From the IMG/VR virus record IMGVR_UViG_3300017527_000096, positions 1-24,076 of that record: a stretch of 24,076 nt of DNA. One strand, 5' to 3'. Position 1 is the stretch's first letter. Each line of letters begins with the position of its first letter. Both the position numbers and the translations under genes were made by a program. This document shows, piece by piece, positions 3,290 to 22,836 of the stretch. The DNA comes from a virus. The notes below the pieces were generated by a model that saw only the letters and a list, made by a program, of their open reading frames with translations, made no database searches and was not told the origin of the DNA.

Positions 3290-4279
3290 TTAGTATGCAA
3301 TCACAAAGAATGCAGGGTGAACAAAGTTAGTTCCAAACTTACCATTAACTTTGATATAGTTTAGCTCATCTTTTCTATCGTACCAAACTTCAACTTTATT
3401 CAAGTCGCTTTTCATGTTGGTAGCCATGATTAGATTGTTAGGAGTAGTAAGCAAAGCCAAATGGCTGTCTACTTTTCCTAAATCATCTTCCATAATAGTA
3501 TCCCAATTACAATCTTGGATGATTTGAATACCTCTATATTGCATAGTGGTAACACCGCTGATTGTTTGAACTCTTCCAGCATCTCCACCTCCAAGGGCTT
3601 CATAGTCATTCTGTACAGCTTCCCATACTGAATTTGTAACGTAAAAACGTTTTTCAGAAGCTGGAAGACCTTTTAAAACCTTCGCTTGCTCCTCGTACAT
3701 CTTTTTAAGAAGTGCTAGACCATCGTCAGGAGCCAAAGGCGCACCGCTATTAGAATCAACATAAGGAGATAAATCATCATCAACTAATTGCTCAGCGTAA
3801 ACTGACCAAAAACCATTTGTTAGGTTTAAAGTTGGATCATCGCTTGACTTGTCACCAAACCAAAATAAGCGCTGATATTCCCCTGGTAAAGAGTCTTGAA
3901 TTAACTGAACGATATACGCCATGATTTCCGTACCAGTAAGGTCGTACTTCATGTTTCCAGTCTTTTTAAAATTCTCTGCAAGTACAGTGTCTTTAAACTG
4001 GTCAATACATTGCTCCATGTTAATCTTAACAGAATCAACTTCAATTGTTCTGTCGTAAATCTCCATTGAGCCTTTAGGTGTGAATTTACACCCTTCTGCT
4101 TTTTGTAGAATCTTGGTCAATTTCTTGATAAATCCAAGTTTCTTTTTATCTGAGATGTTTGGAAGTACTCTAAAAGTATCCAATTTCAGCATACTTTGCC
4201 AAACTGGCTCAAAGAATAACTTGTTAACGCCATTCTTAGGTGTCCAAGTAACATCCAAACTACGGTTTATTGTACCCAT
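3290..4279 (-). CDS. Major capsid protein (HK97-like fold expected)
   Basis: The 329-residue protein is the likely shell subunit. The C-terminal third contains the pattern LALLTTPNNLIMATNMKSDL, then EVWYDRKDELNYIKVNGKFG, ending in HPAFFVIAY. This is the typical ending of major capsid proteins of Bacteroidota siphoviruses. The segment around residues 205-225 (KGLPASEKRFYVTNSVWEAV) also matches capsid P-domain style. It follows the protease/scaffold and the candidate decoration protein, as in the usual head order. There is no long N-terminal delta domain, which fits with the scaffold being supplied by the protease fusion gene. Assignment is from pattern recognition. Confidence 0.8.
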   Translation of the reverse strand: MGTINRSLDVTWTPKNGVNKLFFEPVWQSMLKLDTFRVLPNISDKKKLGFIKKLTKILQKAEGCKFTPKGSMEIYDRTIEVDSVKINMEQCIDQFKDTVLAENFKKTGNMKYDLTGTEIMAYIVQLIQDSLPGEYQRLFWFGDKSSDDPTLNLTNGFWSVYAEQLVDDDLSPYVDSNSGAPLAPDDGLALLKKMYEEQAKVLKGLPASEKRFYVTNSVWEAVQNDYEALGGGDAGRVQTISGVTTMQYRGIQIIQDCNWDTIMEDDLGKVDSHLALLTTPNNLIMATNMKSDLNKVEVWYDRKDELNYIKVNGKFGTNFVHPAFFVIAY

Positions 4280-6865: not shown

Positions 6866-9658
6866 TTAAAAAGTTGTCATTGCTTCAAGTGTAGCATCAT
6901 TATCTTCTACATCTTGTAAATTATTCAAATCTAAAGACACGCCTATTCTGTCTATCCTTGCGTTTGTTGCTGCTGTGCTTGCCAAACTGGCAGACATAAA
7001 TTTATTGAACTGTTCGTTTACGTCAGTCGTTGCGTTGCCTACGCTTGGTGCTGAAATTGGAGTGCCTAGAACGCCACCATTAGCGAACCCTGGAACACCC
7101 ATTGAAGCAAAAGTTTTGTAACCTCCTAACATTGCCTGTTGAGATTCATTCAATATAACCTCTCCTGTTTTTACGGTTGCCAAAACATTGTCTCCATTGT
7201 TTTGTGTTGGTATGTTTGAACCTTTATTTATTCTACCATTACCAAGTACTAAACCACCTTTAGCAAACTTCTGAGAAGCAATCACCGCTATCTGTGCAGC
7301 CGTAGCAACACCCGTAGCAGCAGCAGCAATAAATGAAGCTGGAGGTGGTAAAGAAAAGGCGTTTGTTATACCTAGTGCAGCAGCAATAACGGCCTGAATA
7401 ATAGATATTGCCTTTTGGGCTTCTGCTTGTTCTTTTCTAGCTTTCTCTTTCGCTTTCGTCTCTTCTTCTAAGGCTTTCTCCTCCTGTTCAACTTGTTTTT
7501 CTAAGAATTTCTTATGTAGCCCTGTTGCGTTTTGAAGGTCTTCATTAAGCCTTGAGATACTTTCTTTCCTTGACTCAATAGCTGCGTCAAAACGTGCGTT
7601 TTCAGCTTCTGCTGCAATGTTTACAATGTCACTAATTGCACTAAATGTAGCATTCACCAAATCAACAACAGCGTCTTTTGTGGCTGCTGCTCTTTCTTTA
7701 CTGGATTCTATTTGCTTTGCTATTAATGCATCACTAGCTTCACCTTCTAATCTTTCTAATTCTTCGTACTCTGCTTCTGTACTAGCTATTTCGTCCTGAA
7801 ATGCTTTTTCATCTGCATCTGCTCTTGCTTTTGCGCCATCCGTTTCAATCTTTAAAAGCCTGTCTTGATGGGCTTGCTCTTGCTGTTCGGCTATTGTATT
7901 ATTTGTGGCTCTTAATTGCGAAAGTTGCGCTTCTGACTCATTGATAAAATCAATTAACTCCTTACTACTTGCGCCAAATAAAGCAACTATCTTCTTTTCT
8001 TGTTCCTCTACACCTTGTAATACTTCATTGTAATTAGCCTGTCTAAGTAGCTTTTCTTGCTCAAATCTTTCTTTTTCGGCTGCTAAAGCTCTATCTGTTG
8101 AATCGGATATAGCTGCTATTTGTAGGTTTCTTAATTCAGTATCCAAGTCAACAGCTATCTTAATTCGTGCTAAAGATTCAGTTTGAATTTGGGTCAACAG
8201 TTCGGCTCTAGCTTTTTTAAGATCTTCAATCCTTTTCTTTTCTGCTTTAGCTGCTTCTTTGGCTTGTTCCTCTCTTCTCTTCGCTGCAGCCAATCTCTTT
8301 TCTTCAACGGCAACTTCTTCTTCACTGTTCTTTTTAAACTCTTCCTGAGCCTTAATAGTAGCATCGTATCCTTCTTGGTATGCCTTGCCCACTCCAACGC
8401 TTTGCTCTGAAAGCTCTTTTTGTCGTGCGGTTATAGAGGCTATGTTTTTATTTATCTGGTCTGTGGATTCATCACTAAACGGGTTGAATTTATTAACTTC
8501 TTGGAATACTATTTGCAACTGTAAGCCCATTCTTTTGAATACATTGACTGTTGTTGTTGCAAAGTCTACCGCAGCAGCACTAATTCCCCCAAGTATAGCA
8601 GGAAAATCTGTAAAAATAGAACCTACAAAGCGCAAAGCTCTAGCAAATAGCCCCGTTCCTTCTGACGCACTTATAAAAGCATCACCTACTTTCGATACTA
8701 CAAAAGAAACATTGTCTATAATCTTAGTAATTCCACCACCAAATGCACCAAGTATTTTTTGGCCTACCTTCTGGAATGTGTTTTGAAGTCCTGCACCTGC
8801 ACTATTTAGATCAGCGAATTGTTCTTTTGCTTCATCACTTCCTGTTGCAATTTCCTTGAGGCCGTTGAAGATATTTCTAAGGCCGTTAGCTACACCACCA
8901 GCTATAGAACGCCCAACGCTTAATTTAAGAAGTGTCTTTCCAAGTCCAGCCTGTGCCTTTCTGTATAAACCTATACTACTTCTACCGTCTTTTATTCTGG
9001 TGTCAAGCTTTTGGATTCGCTTATTAGTCTTATCTAATTCTTTTCTAAGTTTACGCCCACCAATACTAAAAGTACTCTGTTGTGCACCACTTAAAGCGTT
9101 GTATTGTTTTTTTAAGGCTGCCGCCTTCGCCCTTAATTCGTCTAAACTCCCTGCACTTGCTTCGCTTGCCTTCTTTCCAGTTCTTAGTTCCTTCCTAAAT
9201 GCCTTAATAGCATCGTTATTCTTACTATATTCTTTGCCTAATTCCCTAAGTTCCTCAGATTGTTCCCCTGTTGCGCTCGTTTGTTCGATTAAGGTTTTCT
9301 TAAGTTCTTTATTCCTCTTGATTACGTCCTTAATCGTATCACTGTCAGACTCGAAAACCTTTTCGTTCTCCTTAATCTCCTTAGTGGTTTTATCTACTGC
9401 CTTAGTGACTTCTAAGTATCCGTTACCTAAATCCTTAACTACTTTGTTGCCTTGCTTGAAAGCACCGAACGAAGTTTTAACAACATCACCTAATTGTTTT
9501 GCCGAAGAACTAGCTTTACTAAAGTCGTTCTCTAAAGAATCTAATGATTTACCTACACCTACAAGTTGCTCATTAAGAAGCCCGAAGAGTTTTGTAGTAG
9601 TTACAATATCTTTCTGGCCTTTTATTTTTATCTCAAAACCTACTACTTTTGTTCCCAT
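6866..9658 (-). CDS. Tape measure protein
   Basis: The 930-residue protein sets tail length and occupies the tail lumen before DNA ejection. Residues 1-230 are charged and helical. Hydrophobic and Gly/Ala-rich stretches occur around 240-310. Residues about 430-750 form a long Glu/Lys/Ala coiled coil. Residues 750-796 are a very hydrophobic Ala-rich segment, followed by KFAKGGLVLGNGRINKGSN and a second FANGGVLGTP motif, which are typical C-terminal tape-measure glycine motifs. At roughly 1.5 angstrom per residue a tail near 140 nm would be expected. It begins three bases after the hub gene. Confidence 0.92.
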   Translation of the reverse strand: MGTKVVGFEIKIKGQKDIVTTTKLFGLLNEQLVGVGKSLDSLENDFSKASSSAKQLGDVVKTSFGAFKQGNKVVKDLGNGYLEVTKAVDKTTKEIKENEKVFESDSDTIKDVIKRNKELKKTLIEQTSATGEQSEELRELGKEYSKNNDAIKAFRKELRTGKKASEASAGSLDELRAKAAALKKQYNALSGAQQSTFSIGGRKLRKELDKTNKRIQKLDTRIKDGRSSIGLYRKAQAGLGKTLLKLSVGRSIAGGVANGLRNIFNGLKEIATGSDEAKEQFADLNSAGAGLQNTFQKVGQKILGAFGGGITKIIDNVSFVVSKVGDAFISASEGTGLFARALRFVGSIFTDFPAILGGISAAAVDFATTTVNVFKRMGLQLQIVFQEVNKFNPFSDESTDQINKNIASITARQKELSEQSVGVGKAYQEGYDATIKAQEEFKKNSEEEVAVEEKRLAAAKRREEQAKEAAKAEKKRIEDLKKARAELLTQIQTESLARIKIAVDLDTELRNLQIAAISDSTDRALAAEKERFEQEKLLRQANYNEVLQGVEEQEKKIVALFGASSKELIDFINESEAQLSQLRATNNTIAEQQEQAHQDRLLKIETDGAKARADADEKAFQDEIASTEAEYEELERLEGEASDALIAKQIESSKERAAATKDAVVDLVNATFSAISDIVNIAAEAENARFDAAIESRKESISRLNEDLQNATGLHKKFLEKQVEQEEKALEEETKAKEKARKEQAEAQKAISIIQAVIAAALGITNAFSLPPPASFIAAAATGVATAAQIAVIASQKFAKGGLVLGNGRINKGSNIPTQNNGDNVLATVKTGEVILNESQQAMLGGYKTFASMGVPGFANGGVLGTPISAPSVGNATTDVNEQFNKFMSASLASTAATNARIDRIGVSLDLNNLQDVEDNDATLEAMTTF

Positions 9659-13408: not shown

Positions 13409-13900
13409 TTATTTTTGCTTAAAGGTTAATTGTTCTTTTATCAATAAATCGATAGTAGCTTCAAAATAATCTGAAATAATAGCCTGTATCCTATCCTTAT
13501 CAGCTTCTAGTACATTACTTATAAATCCTATTTTCTTAGTCAATGGATAGCCCTCTTTCTTATGTTTGTGGGCTATAGCAAAGGCTATCTGTTTTGCTCT
13601 TCTTTTATCTGCTTTAAACTTAAGCCGTGCAAACTCCATCAAACCTTTGATGTATTTAGATGTTCCTCCTCGTGGTGATCCTCCTATAGTGTACGGTATT
13701 CTACTAGGTTTGATTCCGTATTCTAAAGATAAACCGTAATTATTCATTAAAAAGCCGTAAGTAACAGACTCGGCATCTTCATTTATTTGCAACTCAAAGC
13801 TTTTAATTAAGCTTCCTGTTAGCTTATGCCCCTGCCTAACTAACTCTTCAGCTAATTGCTCAAACACAAACTTAGATAATATTTGGGCTAATTCATTCAT
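13409..13900 (-). CDS. HK97 gp10-like neck / tail completion protein
   Basis: The 163-residue product has the layout of HK97-gp10-type proteins: an N-terminal helix, then GHKLTGSLIKSFELQI near residues 25-40, beta strands containing YGFLMNNYGLSLEYGIKPSR, and a basic helical C-terminal half. In this family the LxxS/G-xL helix followed by a YGxxxEYG-like strand is characteristic. These proteins join the head neck to the tail tube. The gene overlaps the preceding one by eight bases. Position beside the tail-terminator-like gene supports the role. Confidence 0.6.
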   Translation of the reverse strand: MNELAQILSKFVFEQLAEELVRQGHKLTGSLIKSFELQINEDAESVTYGFLMNNYGLSLEYGIKPSRIPYTIGGSPRGGTSKYIKGLMEFARLKFKADKRRAKQIAFAIAHKHKKEGYPLTKKIGFISNVLEADKDRIQAIISDYFEATIDLLIKEQLTFKQK

Positions 13901-14160: not shown

Positions 14161-15594
14161 TTATGTCGGAACGTCCGAAGAAATTGCCGAATACGGTAAA
14201 CCCATACCACTTATAGAAGGGTTAAAGTTATTGTTAGACTCGTCAGGGAACACCATTTCTGTAGGCCCTGCCATTGCTCCTTGGCCACCTTTCCACCCTA
14301 CAATAAGATTTGCTGGATGAATTGCACTTTCAAGCATTAGACCATCGTTGTGGTCAGCCAAGAAATCCGCAGCACTTAATTCTATATTCCAGCCTCTAAT
14401 ATACCCAAGGCTTCCACCGAGTCTATTATGAACATCAACACCAAAGCGCAAGTCTTCGCTGCTTAATATAGAACCGCCTAATGTGTCGCTAACTGGAGGG
14501 GCGAGAGTAACTAAAGCCCCATTTACAGACATTTTTATTCCGCTTGCATTCCCTGAGCCGTCAGAACTAAAACCAATTGTGGTCCACGTGTTATTTATTA
14601 ACCCTGCTCCTGAAGAGGTAATATCTATTCCCGTGGGATTAGTATCCCTCATTACTAGCCTCAATTCACCAGCGTTTACTTGCCAAACAAAGCCAATGTA
14701 AGTTCCAGATCGTTTTGATACCACGGGGGATATTACACTAACATTCGACACCTTCACCCTAGCCGTGAAACTCCAAGGTTTATTAAAGTCAAAATCAGAG
14801 TACTGAGGAATATCGCCAGCGAGAATGTAATCACTGATGCCATCGAGTATAATACTGCTTTGAGGTAGCACAGGAGCCGTACAAAGTCGGGCAGTCATAT
14901 CTACGTGCTGCTCTGGCGTTGTGTTACTCCAGACATCATCGTCTGCAAAGTTATAAGTAGGCAATAGGCATTCGTTTCGTTGCTCTTCTGTTAACGAAGC
15001 CAATAGTGCCAAGCAAGCATCTACAGCACTATCTCCACGCTCGATGTCGGTTCCCTCTATTGTGTCAGGAAGTAAATCAAGGTCAATCTTATATTGGTCT
15101 TCGGTACATGGTGTTTGATGAGTGAGATTAAAAGACACCTCCCATGTTATAAGCTTCTGATTATGTAGGTTGGAGCGAACAACATACTTAGGCTTGTCAA
15201 TATGTCCAATATTATATTTATCCACACCAATAACCTCTACTACATTTGCCATGAAGTCATTAGCGATTATCTTTAGTGCGTCCTCTTGCTCAATTAAATT
15301 AAGAGTATTAGCACTACCATCGTTATTGTAATCCTGCAATGTATCAAAATACAGAATCATTTCAATAGTTTCGTCCTTCTCTATGTAGCTTGGCTCTTGG
15401 TCTTCTTGAAATCCATCAGGCTTATCAAGGTGTACAGCAGGAAATTTCCTGCCCTTGCTAAACTTAGGGTCAAAATTGTTAGCAACATTCTTATTTATAT
15501 CACTACGCCATCCGTAATGGTAGTACTTTATCCTAGTATCAGCCTGACACATCAGATTGAATATGTTGCTTATTTGTGTTAGTGTTGTTGACAT
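14161..15594 (-). CDS. Tail-terminator-like domain fused to LamG-type domain
   Basis: The 477-residue protein has two parts. Residues 1-165 (QISNIFNLMCQADTRIKYYH and following) have the alpha/beta layout of tail-terminator or neck proteins, and the gene sits beside the gp10-like gene as such genes do. Residues about 245-415 look like a LamG/concanavalin-type beta sandwich: ILDGISDYILAG, then WSFTARVKVSN, then NNTWTTIGFSSDGSG, then LGYIRGWNIELSAADF. This is a sugar- or surface-binding fold often used in phage adhesins. The start overlaps the previous stop as TAATG. A decoration-type sugar binder at the neck is inference. Confidence 0.65.
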   Translation of the reverse strand: MSTTLTQISNIFNLMCQADTRIKYYHYGWRSDINKNVANNFDPKFSKGRKFPAVHLDKPDGFQEDQEPSYIEKDETIEMILYFDTLQDYNNDGSANTLNLIEQEDALKIIANDFMANVVEVIGVDKYNIGHIDKPKYVVRSNLHNQKLITWEVSFNLTHQTPCTEDQYKIDLDLLPDTIEGTDIERGDSAVDACLALLASLTEEQRNECLLPTYNFADDDVWSNTTPEQHVDMTARLCTAPVLPQSSIILDGISDYILAGDIPQYSDFDFNKPWSFTARVKVSNVSVISPVVSKRSGTYIGFVWQVNAGELRLVMRDTNPTGIDITSSGAGLINNTWTTIGFSSDGSGNASGIKMSVNGALVTLAPPVSDTLGGSILSSEDLRFGVDVHNRLGGSLGYIRGWNIELSAADFLADHNDGLMLESAIHPANLIVGWKGGQGAMAGPTEMVFPDESNNNFNPSISGMGLPYSAISSDVPT

Positions 15595-15980
15595 TAGTTG
15601 CGAAGGTTTTTAGCTGTCTGATGTTCTTGCTCAATATTAATAACAATAGGCTTAACGCCCATCATAGGAAAGTCTTTGTGATAAAAAACTACTTTGTTAT
15701 GTTCGTAGCCATGTACAACATTAAACCCTCCATATGCGATTAGTTCACCTTTTTCGTTTAGAAACAACCCATAATATACTCGTTTGAGCGCAAACACTAA
15801 AGACTCTTGTACGTAATGCGGAATCGACACATAGAAACCATCCTGCAAACACATCCCGTTAGAATGACTAACTCGTTTAGTTTGATTAATCCCTGCATTT
15901 AAAATATTAATCAAATGCACGCCAACCTTTAAGTTGAAATCCTCTATTTCTTTATCTATGTCTGTGTTATGAGCTTCCAT
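15594..15980 (-). CDS. Unknown 128-residue protein after the tail chaperone
   Basis: The ATG at 15980 overlaps, as TAATG, the stop codon of the -1 frame extension of the tail chaperone; the stop of the shorter chaperone product lies about 150 bases upstream. The protein has an N-terminal acidic helix (IDKEIEDFNLKVGVHLINIL) and a beta-rich centre (YYGLFLNEKGELIAYGGFNV). No signal peptide or membrane segment is visible. I do not recognise the family. Confidence 0.65.
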   Translation of the reverse strand: MEAHNTDIDKEIEDFNLKVGVHLINILNAGINQTKRVSHSNGMCLQDGFYVSIPHYVQESLVFALKRVYYGLFLNEKGELIAYGGFNVVHGYEHNKVVFYHKDFPMMGVKPIVINIEQEHQTAKNLRN

Positions 15981-16917
15981 TAAAACTTTGCTTTTTCTAA
16001 ATTACTTAATGCATTTTGATGTGCCAAATAGTTAAACGCTTCATACAAATTAGCCTGTTCTGCACATTCTAAAGCAGTCAAGCCCGAACCACCTATGTTA
16101 AACTGGCCACTCTCACTAATCCTATAAATTACACTAGCCCATCCGTAGCGCTCTTCAAAATCTTTGCTTCCATTCTTGACTTTTCCCCCACCAGCGTATA
16201 GATCAGCAAATTGTTCTTCAATGTTTCGCTTAGTTTGAGCAAAAAAAAAGCTGTGTTAATCACATTGTCCATTGTCGTGCCCAGAAACATTTTACGCCTT
16301 CTGTTGTGTTTCATCTCGGTATAGCTGTACTTTTCTCCTTTTGGCCTACACAATACACACATTACATCTGCCATTGCTTTGTAGTCTCCATTCTCAACGT
16401 CTTTCATTCTCGTTTGGAACTGTGCTGATTCGGAAAACTCTAAGACTGTTGATTCTGTCATGTGTTTAGTAGGTATTCCAAACCACTCCCCATTGATTTC
16501 AAAGCCTGTAAATTCTTCGTTAACTTTGGCGTTAGCTGGGTTCATTTCGTATTGCAGCAACCAAAACACCTGTTCTAATTGTTCCAAGTTCATTGCTTCT
16601 TGGATAATATTTGGTTCAATGTCGCACCAAAAACCAACGTCAAGACAATAGAACTCGTAACACTTAAACTTATCTTGAGGAGGCATTGCAGCCATTCGAG
16701 CCTTAAACATCAAAACACCAAGGCTTTCTTTTTCCTCTGGTGTTAGTGATTCGTCTATGGTGGCTAATTCCTCAGAGTGTTCTTTAATGAACTGGTCTAG
16801 CTCTTCGGGTCTTTTTGGATCTATATCGTCTAAGTATTCAAAGAACCTAGAGAATAGTATATCTGACCATTCAGGCGTTTTATAACTCTTGTCTTCTATT
16901 TTAAAGGTTGCTGGCAT
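15980..16917 (-). CDS. Tail assembly chaperone, predicted -1 frameshift product (GT-like)
   Basis: If ribosomes slip -1 on the T9 run at 16241-16249, they leave the zero frame after codon 225 and read an open frame to a TAA at 15980-15982, giving a 312-residue fusion with 87 new residues. The extension is protein-like (FEERYGWASVIYRISESGQF, then LTALECAEQANLYEAFNYLA), as in T domains that bind the tail tube. The -1 frame has a TAA four codons before the T-run and no ATG, GTG or TTG in its first half, so it cannot easily start alone. Its stop overlaps the next gene's ATG as TAATG. Confidence 0.75.
16129..16917 (-). CDS. Tail assembly chaperone, short form (G-like)
   Basis: This is the zero-frame product, 262 residues. 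Chaperones of this type coat the tape measure during tail assembly. Evidence is the layout: an N-terminal acidic domain (PEWSDILFSRFFEYLDDI), a helical middle with CRPKGEKYSYTEMKHNRRRK near residues 190-209, and a hydrophobic helix NVINTAFFLLKLSETL near 217-232. The codons for Ala223-Phe224-Phe225-Leu226 contain nine consecutive T bases, a slippery run, and an open -1 frame follows it. The gene starts one base after the preceding stop. The family call rests on layout plus the frameshift, not on a database match. Confidence 0.75.
   Translation of the reverse strand: MPATFKIEDKSYKTPEWSDILFSRFFEYLDDIDPKRPEELDQFIKEHSEELATIDESLTPEEKESLGVLMFKARMAAMPPQDKFKCYEFYCLDVGFWCDIEPNIIQEAMNLEQLEQVFWLLQYEMNPANAKVNEEFTGFEINGEWFGIPTKHMTESTVLEFSESAQFQTRMKDVENGDYKAMADVMCVLCRPKGEKYSYTEMKHNRRRKMFLGTTMDNVINTAFFLLKLSETLKNNLLIYTLVGEKSRMEAKILKSATDGLV
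16241..16251 (-). promoter_or_regulatory. Slippery site for -1 frameshifting
   Basis: On the minus strand the zero-frame codons read GCT TTT TTT TTG. The nine T bases allow P- and A-site tRNAs to re-pair one base back, as in the X XXY YYZ rule. The run falls at codons 223-226 of the chaperone gene. No obvious strong downstream hairpin was found by eye; a homopolymer this long can slip without one, and RNA polymerase slippage is an alternative. Confidence 0.75.
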
Positions 16918-16918
16918 C

Positions 16919-17524
16919 TTATCCTTTTATGTCTCTCTCAATACTGTTACCTTTCGATTTGTTGCTACTGGCTAACAGATTACCGCCCTTGTTTTTCTTC
17001 ATCTTAGAAAGAACACCGTTAACCTTTTCAATGACGATCATCAATTCATCAGATATTTGGACAGGATTATAGCCATCCAATGCTAATTTCTTGATGTTAC
17101 CAATCTGCTCTTGGTTCAACCTCCTAGGATTAGCTTTCTCTTTCTTGTCAGACACAACTTCTTCAGCTTTGAACAAATCCTTCTTCTTAGCCTTGTTTCT
17201 AATCTGTTTTGATTCTGTTTCTAATACATCATTGGGCGTGAACATACCCTTCTTTGCGTTATTCTTTATAGCCTTGCTATCCTTGTCAACCTCTAATTTA
17301 CCAACCTTATTACTAGCCTTCTTGAAGAACCCTTTTTTAGAGTAAGGTTTTGCCTTCTTCTCTACTGGCTCCCTGTGTCCTAAGTTTCTAAGAATACGTT
17401 TCTGTATCACTAGGATTTCCGAACACTTTCTTTTAAGGTCGTGCGGTGCTGAATCGTGAGCCTTTTGATAGTCTGCTACAACCTTAAGCTGTGCATCAAT
17501 TAGTGTTTGTTTTGTTACTTCCAT
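16919..17524 (-). CDS. Lysine-rich protein with KK-motif repeats and HTH-like C-terminus
   Basis: The 201-residue protein is very basic. It has three imperfect repeats with a KKGF/KKGMF/KKDLF core at about residues 63, 91 and 114, each followed by an acidic or neutral stretch. Residues 137-175 (NQEQIGNIKKLALDGYNPVQ, then ISDEL...EKVNGVL) look like a helix-turn-helix of the resolvase/small-terminase type. The C-terminal 25 residues are Asn/Lys/Ser-rich. It lies between the large terminase and the tail chaperone. A DNA-binding role is likely; whether it serves packaging or transcription cannot be told. Confidence 0.6.
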   Translation of the reverse strand: MEVTKQTLIDAQLKVVADYQKAHDSAPHDLKRKCSEILVIQKRILRNLGHREPVEKKAKPYSKKGFFKKASNKVGKLEVDKDSKAIKNNAKKGMFTPNDVLETESKQIRNKAKKKDLFKAEEVVSDKKEKANPRRLNQEQIGNIKKLALDGYNPVQISDELMIVIEKVNGVLSKMKKNKGGNLLASSNKSKGNSIERDIKG

Positions 17525-17538
17525 TTTATAGTTTTGTT

Positions 17539-19008
17539 TTATGCAATATAAGGATTAATTCCTTCAATAAAATATTCATACACAGCATAACAAAGTACAT
17601 CAACTTTATCATCATGTTTTCCATTAGGGAATACTTCACATTGTGTAATGAATCCATCTATCCAATTTCCATCTTCAATTAAAATAACTCTTCCTGCTCT
17701 TAAAAATGTTTCTATTGCTTCTACTCTTGTATGCTTACCAAGTTTTACAATATCATTATTAATTTCTGTACAATTATAACCTGCTTCAGTTAGGAAATCT
17801 AGAAAGGCATAACCACTAGACTTCTTTTCAATATGAAATAGACTTTGGTAATTACAACCTGCTACCCTTGAATCTAATTTAATGTATTCTATTGCCTTAG
17901 ATATTCGTTTTCTAAAGCCTGATACTCTACGAATGTACAACAATTTGTTCACTTTATCAAAATAAACGTATGCCTGTGCTGTTTCATCGTTCTTAACTTT
18001 TTCAGTCCAGGCACCATCTAAAAACATATTCCAAACAACATCGTCAATATTAAAAGGTAGTTCATTAGGTTGTTTTCTAACAAACCATTCGCCCTTAATC
18101 ATATCACCACCTTTTGCAACAGGTCTTTGTTGATAAAGACCATCAAAAGTTCTAGGATTCTTTTCTTTTATTTCTTCTAGTCTAGCCTGGCTATGTAAGC
18201 CATGAAATAAAGCTTCACCTATTTTTCTTGGATCGTTTTTATCTTCTAAATCTTCCCTAAGTGCAGGAAGTGTAATAACTTTCCATTTACCACCATCTTC
18301 TGTTGTTCCATCCCTTTTAATTAACCTACCTGCTAAATCATCATCATGCCTTCTAGTAATTGTGAAGGCAACTTTTGAATCATTGTGTAAACGTGCTTCT
18401 AATTCGTCAGTGTACCATTCATAAACATTATTTCTGTAGGTTTCACTTTTGGCTTCCTTTACATTCTTAATTACATCATCCATGAAGGCCAGCTTTGCAG
18501 GATTCCCAGCAATACCACCATCTACACCAACAGACTTCAAGAAGCCCCTACCACCAACAATTTCAAATTCTTCTGAATTCTTTATTGCATCAGAAGAAGA
18601 AACACTTTTATCATTCAGCTTTGTATTAGGGAATATCTTCTTATACTTAGGTGTTCCCATTATTCGCTGAATCTTCCTATTATATTTCTTAGCCATTGTA
18701 CTATTGTACATCACTAATAAGGCTTGATAGTCTATATTCTGACCAAACGCCCACGCTGGTAAGTACTCTGTCATCATGGTACTCTTTTGATGCTGCGGGG
18801 GCATGAATATCATAAGAAAAGGATGCTTGTCTGTTAGGATCCAGTCTTGCAGAACTTTGCAAACATATTCATGGTGCCAATTCCAAGTAAATTCACTAGG
18901 AGACATGAGCTTGAGAAAGGTGTAAAAGTCCGTTCTAGCCTTTCGCCTTTCCATCTCTAGGAGGTTGGCTACGTATTGGGCTTTTGTTATTTCTTGTTTT
19001 TTTGCCAT
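17539..19008 (-). CDS. terL: Terminase large subunit
   Basis: The 489-residue ATPase-nuclease packages DNA into proheads. The ATPase half has a Walker A-like MPPQHQKST at residues 69-77 (a variant of the common PPRHGKS) and Walker B LAFMDD at 173-178. The helix FDGLYQQRPVAKGGDMIKGE around 288-306 is typical of the linker. The nuclease half shows an RNase H-type acidic set: Asp331 in MFLDGAW, Glu394 in FHIEKKSSGY, and the cluster HDDKVDVLCYAVYEY near 465-479. The start overlaps the preceding gene by 22 bases. The length is normal for the family. Confidence 0.93.
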   Translation of the reverse strand: MAKKQEITKAQYVANLLEMERRKARTDFYTFLKLMSPSEFTWNWHHEYVCKVLQDWILTDKHPFLMIFMPPQHQKSTMMTEYLPAWAFGQNIDYQALLVMYNSTMAKKYNRKIQRIMGTPKYKKIFPNTKLNDKSVSSSDAIKNSEEFEIVGGRGFLKSVGVDGGIAGNPAKLAFMDDVIKNVKEAKSETYRNNVYEWYTDELEARLHNDSKVAFTITRRHDDDLAGRLIKRDGTTEDGGKWKVITLPALREDLEDKNDPRKIGEALFHGLHSQARLEEIKEKNPRTFDGLYQQRPVAKGGDMIKGEWFVRKQPNELPFNIDDVVWNMFLDGAWTEKVKNDETAQAYVYFDKVNKLLYIRRVSGFRKRISKAIEYIKLDSRVAGCNYQSLFHIEKKSSGYAFLDFLTEAGYNCTEINNDIVKLGKHTRVEAIETFLRAGRVILIEDGNWIDGFITQCEVFPNGKHDDKVDVLCYAVYEYFIEGINPYIA

Positions 19009-22754: not shown

Positions 22755-22828
22755 TGCTACTACAGGGAATCGAACCCCAAACCTTCTGAGTACAAATCAG
22801 ACGCTCTAGCCAGTTGAGCTAGTGTGGC
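22755..22828 (-). tRNA. tRNA-Thr (UGU)-like, acceptor stem degenerate
   Basis: A 74-base cloverleaf can be drawn. The D stem GCTC/GAGC with GG in its loop is perfect, as is the anticodon stem TCTGA/TCAGA around the loop TTTGTAC, giving anticodon UGU (reads ACA, Thr). The T loop TTCGATT is standard, with two G-U pairs in its stem. The acceptor stem, however, pairs only at positions 1, 2, 4 and 5: 3-70, 6-67 and 7-66 are mismatches. No CCA is encoded. It may be a decaying tRNA or one needing repair. Confidence 0.6.
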
Positions 22829-22836
22829 ATTTTAAA

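Follow-up and report, generated by a model that had tools for sequence, protein, structure and literature searches.

Results

A run of nine thymines at the head of the tail module

The window, meaning the whole stretch of DNA that was analysed, is a 24,076-base virus record. On its minus strand it carries a 262-codon open reading frame that contains a run of nine thymines, the sole homopolymer of at least nine bases in the window (Table 1). This gene, which we call the T9 gene, belongs to a series in the order terminase, T9 gene, several tail-side genes, tape measure, head protease, structural protein and portal. The tape-measure gene lies ~6.3 kb downstream, with several genes between. Conserved neighbours recur in relatives, several of which have a terminase called upstream or a homologue of the tape measure downstream. 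The homologue of the gene at 14161-15594 is only about 150-190 aa long in several relatives. Elsewhere in the window, the protein encoded at 20202-21395 matches both ParB-like nuclease and DNA methyltransferase families, and a tRNA-Thr (tgt) gene lies at 22756-22829 on the minus strand.

The run begins at position 3 of codon 223 and ends at position 2 of codon 226. A first-pass annotation, made from this sequence alone, had proposed a programmed -1 frameshift in a tail assembly chaperone gene, and much of its description of the site is borne out: the T9 at codons 223-226 is followed by an open -1 frame, a stop in that frame precedes the run, and the TAA ending the extension (15982..15980) overlaps the ATG of the next gene by one base (15980). 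Two distances need correcting, as the extension has 89 codons counted from the run rather than 87, and the preceding TAA is three codons 5' of the run rather than four. The annotation had also described the first half of the extension as lacking start codons. Neither ATG nor GTG occurs within the window's extension, for which the ORF list gives just one in-frame start, a TTG late in the extension at 16081.

Table 1. Features of the T9 gene and its neighbourhood in the window
Feature	Position	Strand	Basis
Terminase large subunit, start of late operon	17539..19008	-	PHROG 38, E 5.9e-86
Weakly conserved 201-aa gene, flanked by terminase and T9 gene	16919..17524	-	Relatives' contigs
0-frame ORF, predicted short product (N-terminal body and 0-frame tail)	16129..16917	-	262 codons; ORF list
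TAA closing the -1 frame, 5' of T9	16256..16258	-	Sequence
Candidate slippage site T9, GCT TTT TTT TTG in the 0 frame	16241..16249	-	Sequence and conservation
Putative dual-coding overlap of the 0-frame tail with the -1 frame	16129..16240	-	Variation pattern in relatives
-1-frame extension, 89 aa and TAA, predicted to be joined to the N-terminal body by the slip	15980..16249	-	Homology and codon-position substitution pattern
TAATG, extension stop overlapping the next gene's start	15978..15982	-	ORF list
Next gene, 128 aa	15594..15980	-	No match in terminase-linked relatives
Gene with a LamG-like C-terminal part; its conserved first ~185 aa recur behind the T9 gene in relatives	14161..15594	-	Homology
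163-aa protein conserved in relatives' tail module	13409..13900	-	Homology
Tape measure protein	6866..9658	-	PHROG 3336, E 1.3e-10

The run and both frames are conserved in two clades

The T9-gene protein had no match in PHROGs, Pfam, an annotated phage collection or a direct scan of viral contigs. The family was entered through the neighbouring terminase, which drew in related IMG/VR contigs. Both the 0-frame protein (~40% identity) and the extension (44-50%) are present in six terminase-linked contigs, at an identical CTTTTTTTTTGCT, and alignments grown from these six reached 73 and 19 loci. Clade 1, to which the window belongs, was gathered by six-frame HMM searches and comprises 73 distinct genes with both frames open; in every one of them exactly nine Ts begin at codon position 3, with G as the next base. 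In the more distant members, the 0-frame protein drops to ~17-30% identity with that of the window. The G after the run, which gives Leu TTG, is also present in the L091 group of this clade-1 set; TTA is usually the commoner Leu codon in AT-rich representatives, and the use of TTG may stem from the residue in the -1 frame or from the slip. One relative, L278, has a 0-frame ORF ending at 3333 and a -1 ORF opening at 3401, and is either a damaged copy or a sequence error.

A scan with the homologue from phage P12024S yielded clade 2, with 48 distinct genes in which both frames are open, 47 with T9 and one with T10. Across both clades, T9 is thus found in 120 of 121 distinct homologous genes. In the T10 gene (L117) the 0 frame is kept and the base preceding the run had become T. 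The two clades are homologous in both halves of the protein by hhalign (N-terminal, 97.9%, E 5.9e-13; C-terminal, 97.7%, E 1.8e-12). The GC content of the representatives ranges from 31 to 54%, and T9 is kept even in the 54% GC genomes; conditioned on the amino acids and on the codon usage of each genome, the mean probability of T9 per representative genome is 0.03. An alignment of homologues, which the first-pass annotation had put forward as a check on the run and the -1 frame, therefore finds both conserved in 121 genes of two clades.

The site is also recognisable at the DNA level. Among the matches listed in a scan for the 19-mer T9ATCATTTAGG, 113 of 119 loci carry the T9 gene with the run in the frame overlap; the other loci among these matches comprise four with the extension only, one with both parts and the run outside the tested overlap, and one with no match. 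Because the 19-mer word itself contains T9, the scan was repeated asking only for five Ts, and this pattern returned 60 T9 runs, one T10 and no shorter run. The alignments designated A3 and A4 were too diverse to serve pattern scans, and a scan of genome contigs with the 0-frame alignment found no relative.

Cultured members of the family were found in the Nonlabens/Persicivirga phages P12024S and P12024L. The P12024S homologue, gene 38, immediately follows terminase. It has T9 and a -1 extension of 83 codons, part of which appears in GenBank as gene 39, and P12024L is alike. The pairs of hypothetical genes 38/39 (P12024S, L103, 23136-23827) and 40/41 (P12024L, L105) are most likely one frameshifted gene each, joinable at T9. 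Downstream in P12024S there is weak similarity to tail completion/Neck1 proteins (E 4e-4) and a weak tape-measure match.

The extension is under coding constraint

Substitution patterns in a close group of relatives (L046-L083) point to translation of the extension. Past the 0-frame stop, variable sites number 8/60, 44/60 and 12/59 at -1-frame positions 2, 3 and 1, respectively, while upstream the usual 0-frame third-position excess is seen (87/100). Because the substitutions are concentrated at -1-frame third positions, the extension appears to be translated, which agrees with the first-pass description of it as protein-like. Within the overlap of relatives, variation is suppressed or evenly spread across codon positions, so both tails seem to be constrained in these relatives.

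Several explanations of the two frames that do without programmed slippage can be weighed against these patterns. Homopolymers are error-prone on some sequencing platforms, and were the real run T10 by insertion, the frames would fuse into a single ORF. This reading, in which the two frames reflect a sequencing or assembly error or a decayed gene, is however refuted by the 121 distinct genes, from independent assemblies and including the isolates P12024S and P12024L, in which both frames are open around T9 (or an in-phase T10 that arose by substitution), and the 0-frame tail is itself constrained in relatives; we regard it as practically discounted. Long homopolymers mutate fast and phase-variable tracts are common in bacteria, so the DNA tract could instead gain and lose bases to switch the long form on and off. 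That is highly improbable, as no member is in the fused state and the T10 sequence retains the 0 frame. Very little also speaks for the -1 ORF as a separate gene, which is how GenBank annotates P12024S_39, with its start placed within that frame: in clade 1 the stretch from T9 to a conserved GW motif is free of ATG (0/71), and homology of the extension begins at the T-run itself. Since that stretch offers no ATG, the extension in clade 1 would be made as a fusion. By the evidence of these alignments, selection keeps the T9 site in place, and the extension is a coding sequence whose whole product can arise only by fusion. Programmed access to the -1 frame, as the first-pass annotation had proposed, is strongly supported by the conserved run, the two open frames and the coding constraint on the extension.

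Slippage by RNA polymerase or by the ribosome

The two clades differ in how the run is placed over codons, with xxT TTT TTT TTG (A/S/G-F-F-L) in clade 1 versus xTT TTT TTT TAT (V/L/I-F-F-Y) in clade 2. The flanking residues change in compensation between clades, so that the length stays nine while the phase shifts. The L091 group has the clade-1 phase, yet the tree places it with clade 2 at 100/100. Run length is conserved and codon phase is not, a contrast that rests on one phase switch on the tree and is partly confounded by amino acids. Downstream of the run there is no excess of RNA folding (mean z near 0). In the ORFs of these phages, runs of A9 or more are depleted (11 observed, 26.3 +/- 4.3 expected), as is T8 (7 observed, 18.0 +/- 3.6 expected), although depletion of long runs has other possible causes. 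Nine is the run length typical of slippage by bacterial RNA polymerase. It is also the length at which selection against A/T runs shows in a large proportion of bacteria, and in Shigella mxiE two ORFs are joined when a single non-templated base is added at a U run (PMC1088944). The T9 family shares the defining feature of this 9A/9T class, an A/T homopolymer of at least nine joining two frames (nine in all but the single T10 gene).

Both routes are possible, because all members of the two clades have an in-phase T TTT TTT. Tandem Phe-tRNAs could slip one base on U UUU UUU (with U UUU UUG in clade 1), and lambda and many dsDNA-phage chaperones are known to use ribosomal -1 frameshifting (PMC5009743), with a frequency of 6-7% measured for an HK97-like cluster (PMC3711429). 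Length conservation alone is no proof of a slip by RNA polymerase, since T9 in either phase contains a perfect ribosomal heptamer, and the residues encoded in one frame or both dictate some of the additional Ts. However, seven Ts would be enough for the ribosome, and runs shorter than nine are never seen; the codon phase has shifted while the length was kept; and Shine-Dalgarno-like words occur upstream in only 14/73 genes of clade 1 and 4/48 of clade 2. The missing downstream structure also speaks against a ribosomal site, though not all such sites have stimulators. We accordingly give ribosomal frameshifting a substantial but minority share of our expectation. Judged by these patterns of length, phase and context, transcriptional slippage seems the likelier source of the shift at T9. 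Of the first-pass proposal, access to the -1 frame stands, and the translational route is not established, with the evidence leaning to transcriptional slippage.

A probable chaperone-like pair by architecture

Searches of PHROGs and Pfam for function, and hhalign comparisons with N15 G and T and with the chaperone of Flavobacterium phage 1/32, gave no similarity. The first-pass annotation had looked to similarity between the extension and T domains, and none was found by sequence or profile, the comparison with N15 T included. The two halves were modelled separately with AlphaFold, which gave a mean pLDDT of 86.7 for the 262-aa protein and a poor model (61.6) for the extension alone. A BFVD search with the 262-aa model matched a Nonlabens phage P12024S protein, and lower-ranked fold matches include annotated tail assembly chaperones (N15 GT, Kitkat) and, in the PDB, HK97 2ob9. 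These chaperone matches are weak (BFVD probability at most 0.84; PDB 2ob9, E 7.9). A weak fold relative in Flavobacterium phage 6H (L104, 10352-10927), which has a T-domain-like -1 frame, was left out, as a -1 stop follows its T6 and it has no usable run.

Because all sequence and profile membership tests failed and the fold hits are weak, we do not file the T9 gene as a member of the G/GT family. Its architecture is nevertheless that of such a gene: the conserved overlapping frames and coding constraint predict two products with a common N-terminus through access to the -1 frame, and the gene belongs to the tail module upstream of the tape measure, though not adjacent to it. By analogy, the short and long products probably act as a G/GT-like tail assembly chaperone pair. 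The lambda logic claimed at first pass is in this sense plausible from the architecture and the position at the head of the tail module, but draws nothing from sequence or profile similarity, and neither the weak folds nor the ~6.3 kb to the tape measure help it. The same shortage of sequence, profile or strong fold matches, together with the position directly after terminase, would suit a real frameshifted gene for some other late protein. We consider this less likely, as a short helical product with a rare C-terminal extension heading the tail module is the chaperone layout, and the named phage proteins among the weak BFVD matches are mostly chaperones.

Discussion

Our proposal is that the T9 gene encodes two proteins from one start. 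Most messages would give the 262-aa product, and the fraction with a one-base shift at T9 would give a ~312-aa fusion of the same body to the 89-aa C-terminal domain. RNA polymerase would add one U on the T9 tract, and ordinary ribosomes would then read the extension in frame on the resulting U10 mRNA; ribosomal -1 slippage on U UUU UUU may contribute or be the true cause. The short form may coat the tape measure and the rare long form recruit tail-tube subunits, as gpG and gpGT do in lambda. Taken whole, as a two-product gene for a chaperone-like pair with the shift made at T9 by RNA polymerase, this explanation is one that we favour by a little. The broader claim is more tentative, and we would put it at somewhat under an even chance: that a large, mostly uncultivated phage group sets the ratio of two chaperone-like tail proteins by RNA-polymerase slippage at T9 and not by the ribosome, so that the G/GT dosage rule would be preserved but would operate at transcription and no longer at translation.

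Phage tail genes with programmed frame changes are already known, as is 9A/9T slippage in bacteria. In the parts of the literature on tail assembly chaperones and transcriptional slippage that were available to us, we found no description of such a gene and, as far as those sources and our searches reach, the T9 family, its fixed T9, its shifted phase and the cultured P12024S system are new. If the proposal is confirmed, annotation has overlooked the long form of a phage gene family that is widespread, with P12024S and P12024L each given two hypothetical genes, and in one clade the slip site can be recognised by a single DNA word in more than a hundred contigs. The family would also offer a natural test, with a cultured system, of RNA polymerase, and not the ribosome, as the means by which a phage sets the stoichiometry of a two-form protein.

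The closest comparison is with genes 38-39 of P12024S and 40-41 of P12024L (PHROG 32199, 38404), which resemble the window in their place after terminase, the T9, a -1 extension with the GW motif and synteny to a tape-measure-like gene. They differ in that their run starts one base earlier relative to the codons, with A as the next base, and in their annotation as separate genes. The chaperone of Flavobacterium phage 1/32 (F132_37/38) likewise changes frame at a long homopolymer, but is not homologous by profile, uses an A-run and lies directly before the tape measure. Its frame changes at or near A10 (L014:19353-20092), and a relative in tant8-1 (L013:24819-25589) has A11 and an uninterrupted frame. 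It is possibly another homopolymer-slip chaperone, and no relatives of it were found in viral contigs.

Like gpG/gpGT of lambda, HK97 and N15, the T9 gene has one start, a predicted short product and a predicted C-terminally extended -1 product, sits in a late operon with the tape measure, and has an extension whose stop overlaps or abuts the next gene. Unlike those chaperones, it shows no detectable sequence or profile similarity to them, has a pure T9 and not a GGGAAAG-type site, lies several genes before the tape measure, and has a 0-frame tail that continues ~20 to 90 codons past the slip and is constrained in relatives. With Shigella mxiE and the bacterial IS elements that use 9A/9T transcriptional slippage it shares overlapping frames joined at an A/T run of about nine; in those systems one extra base gives the long product (PMC1088944), whereas in the T9 family, with its different genes and hosts, the slippage is predicted.
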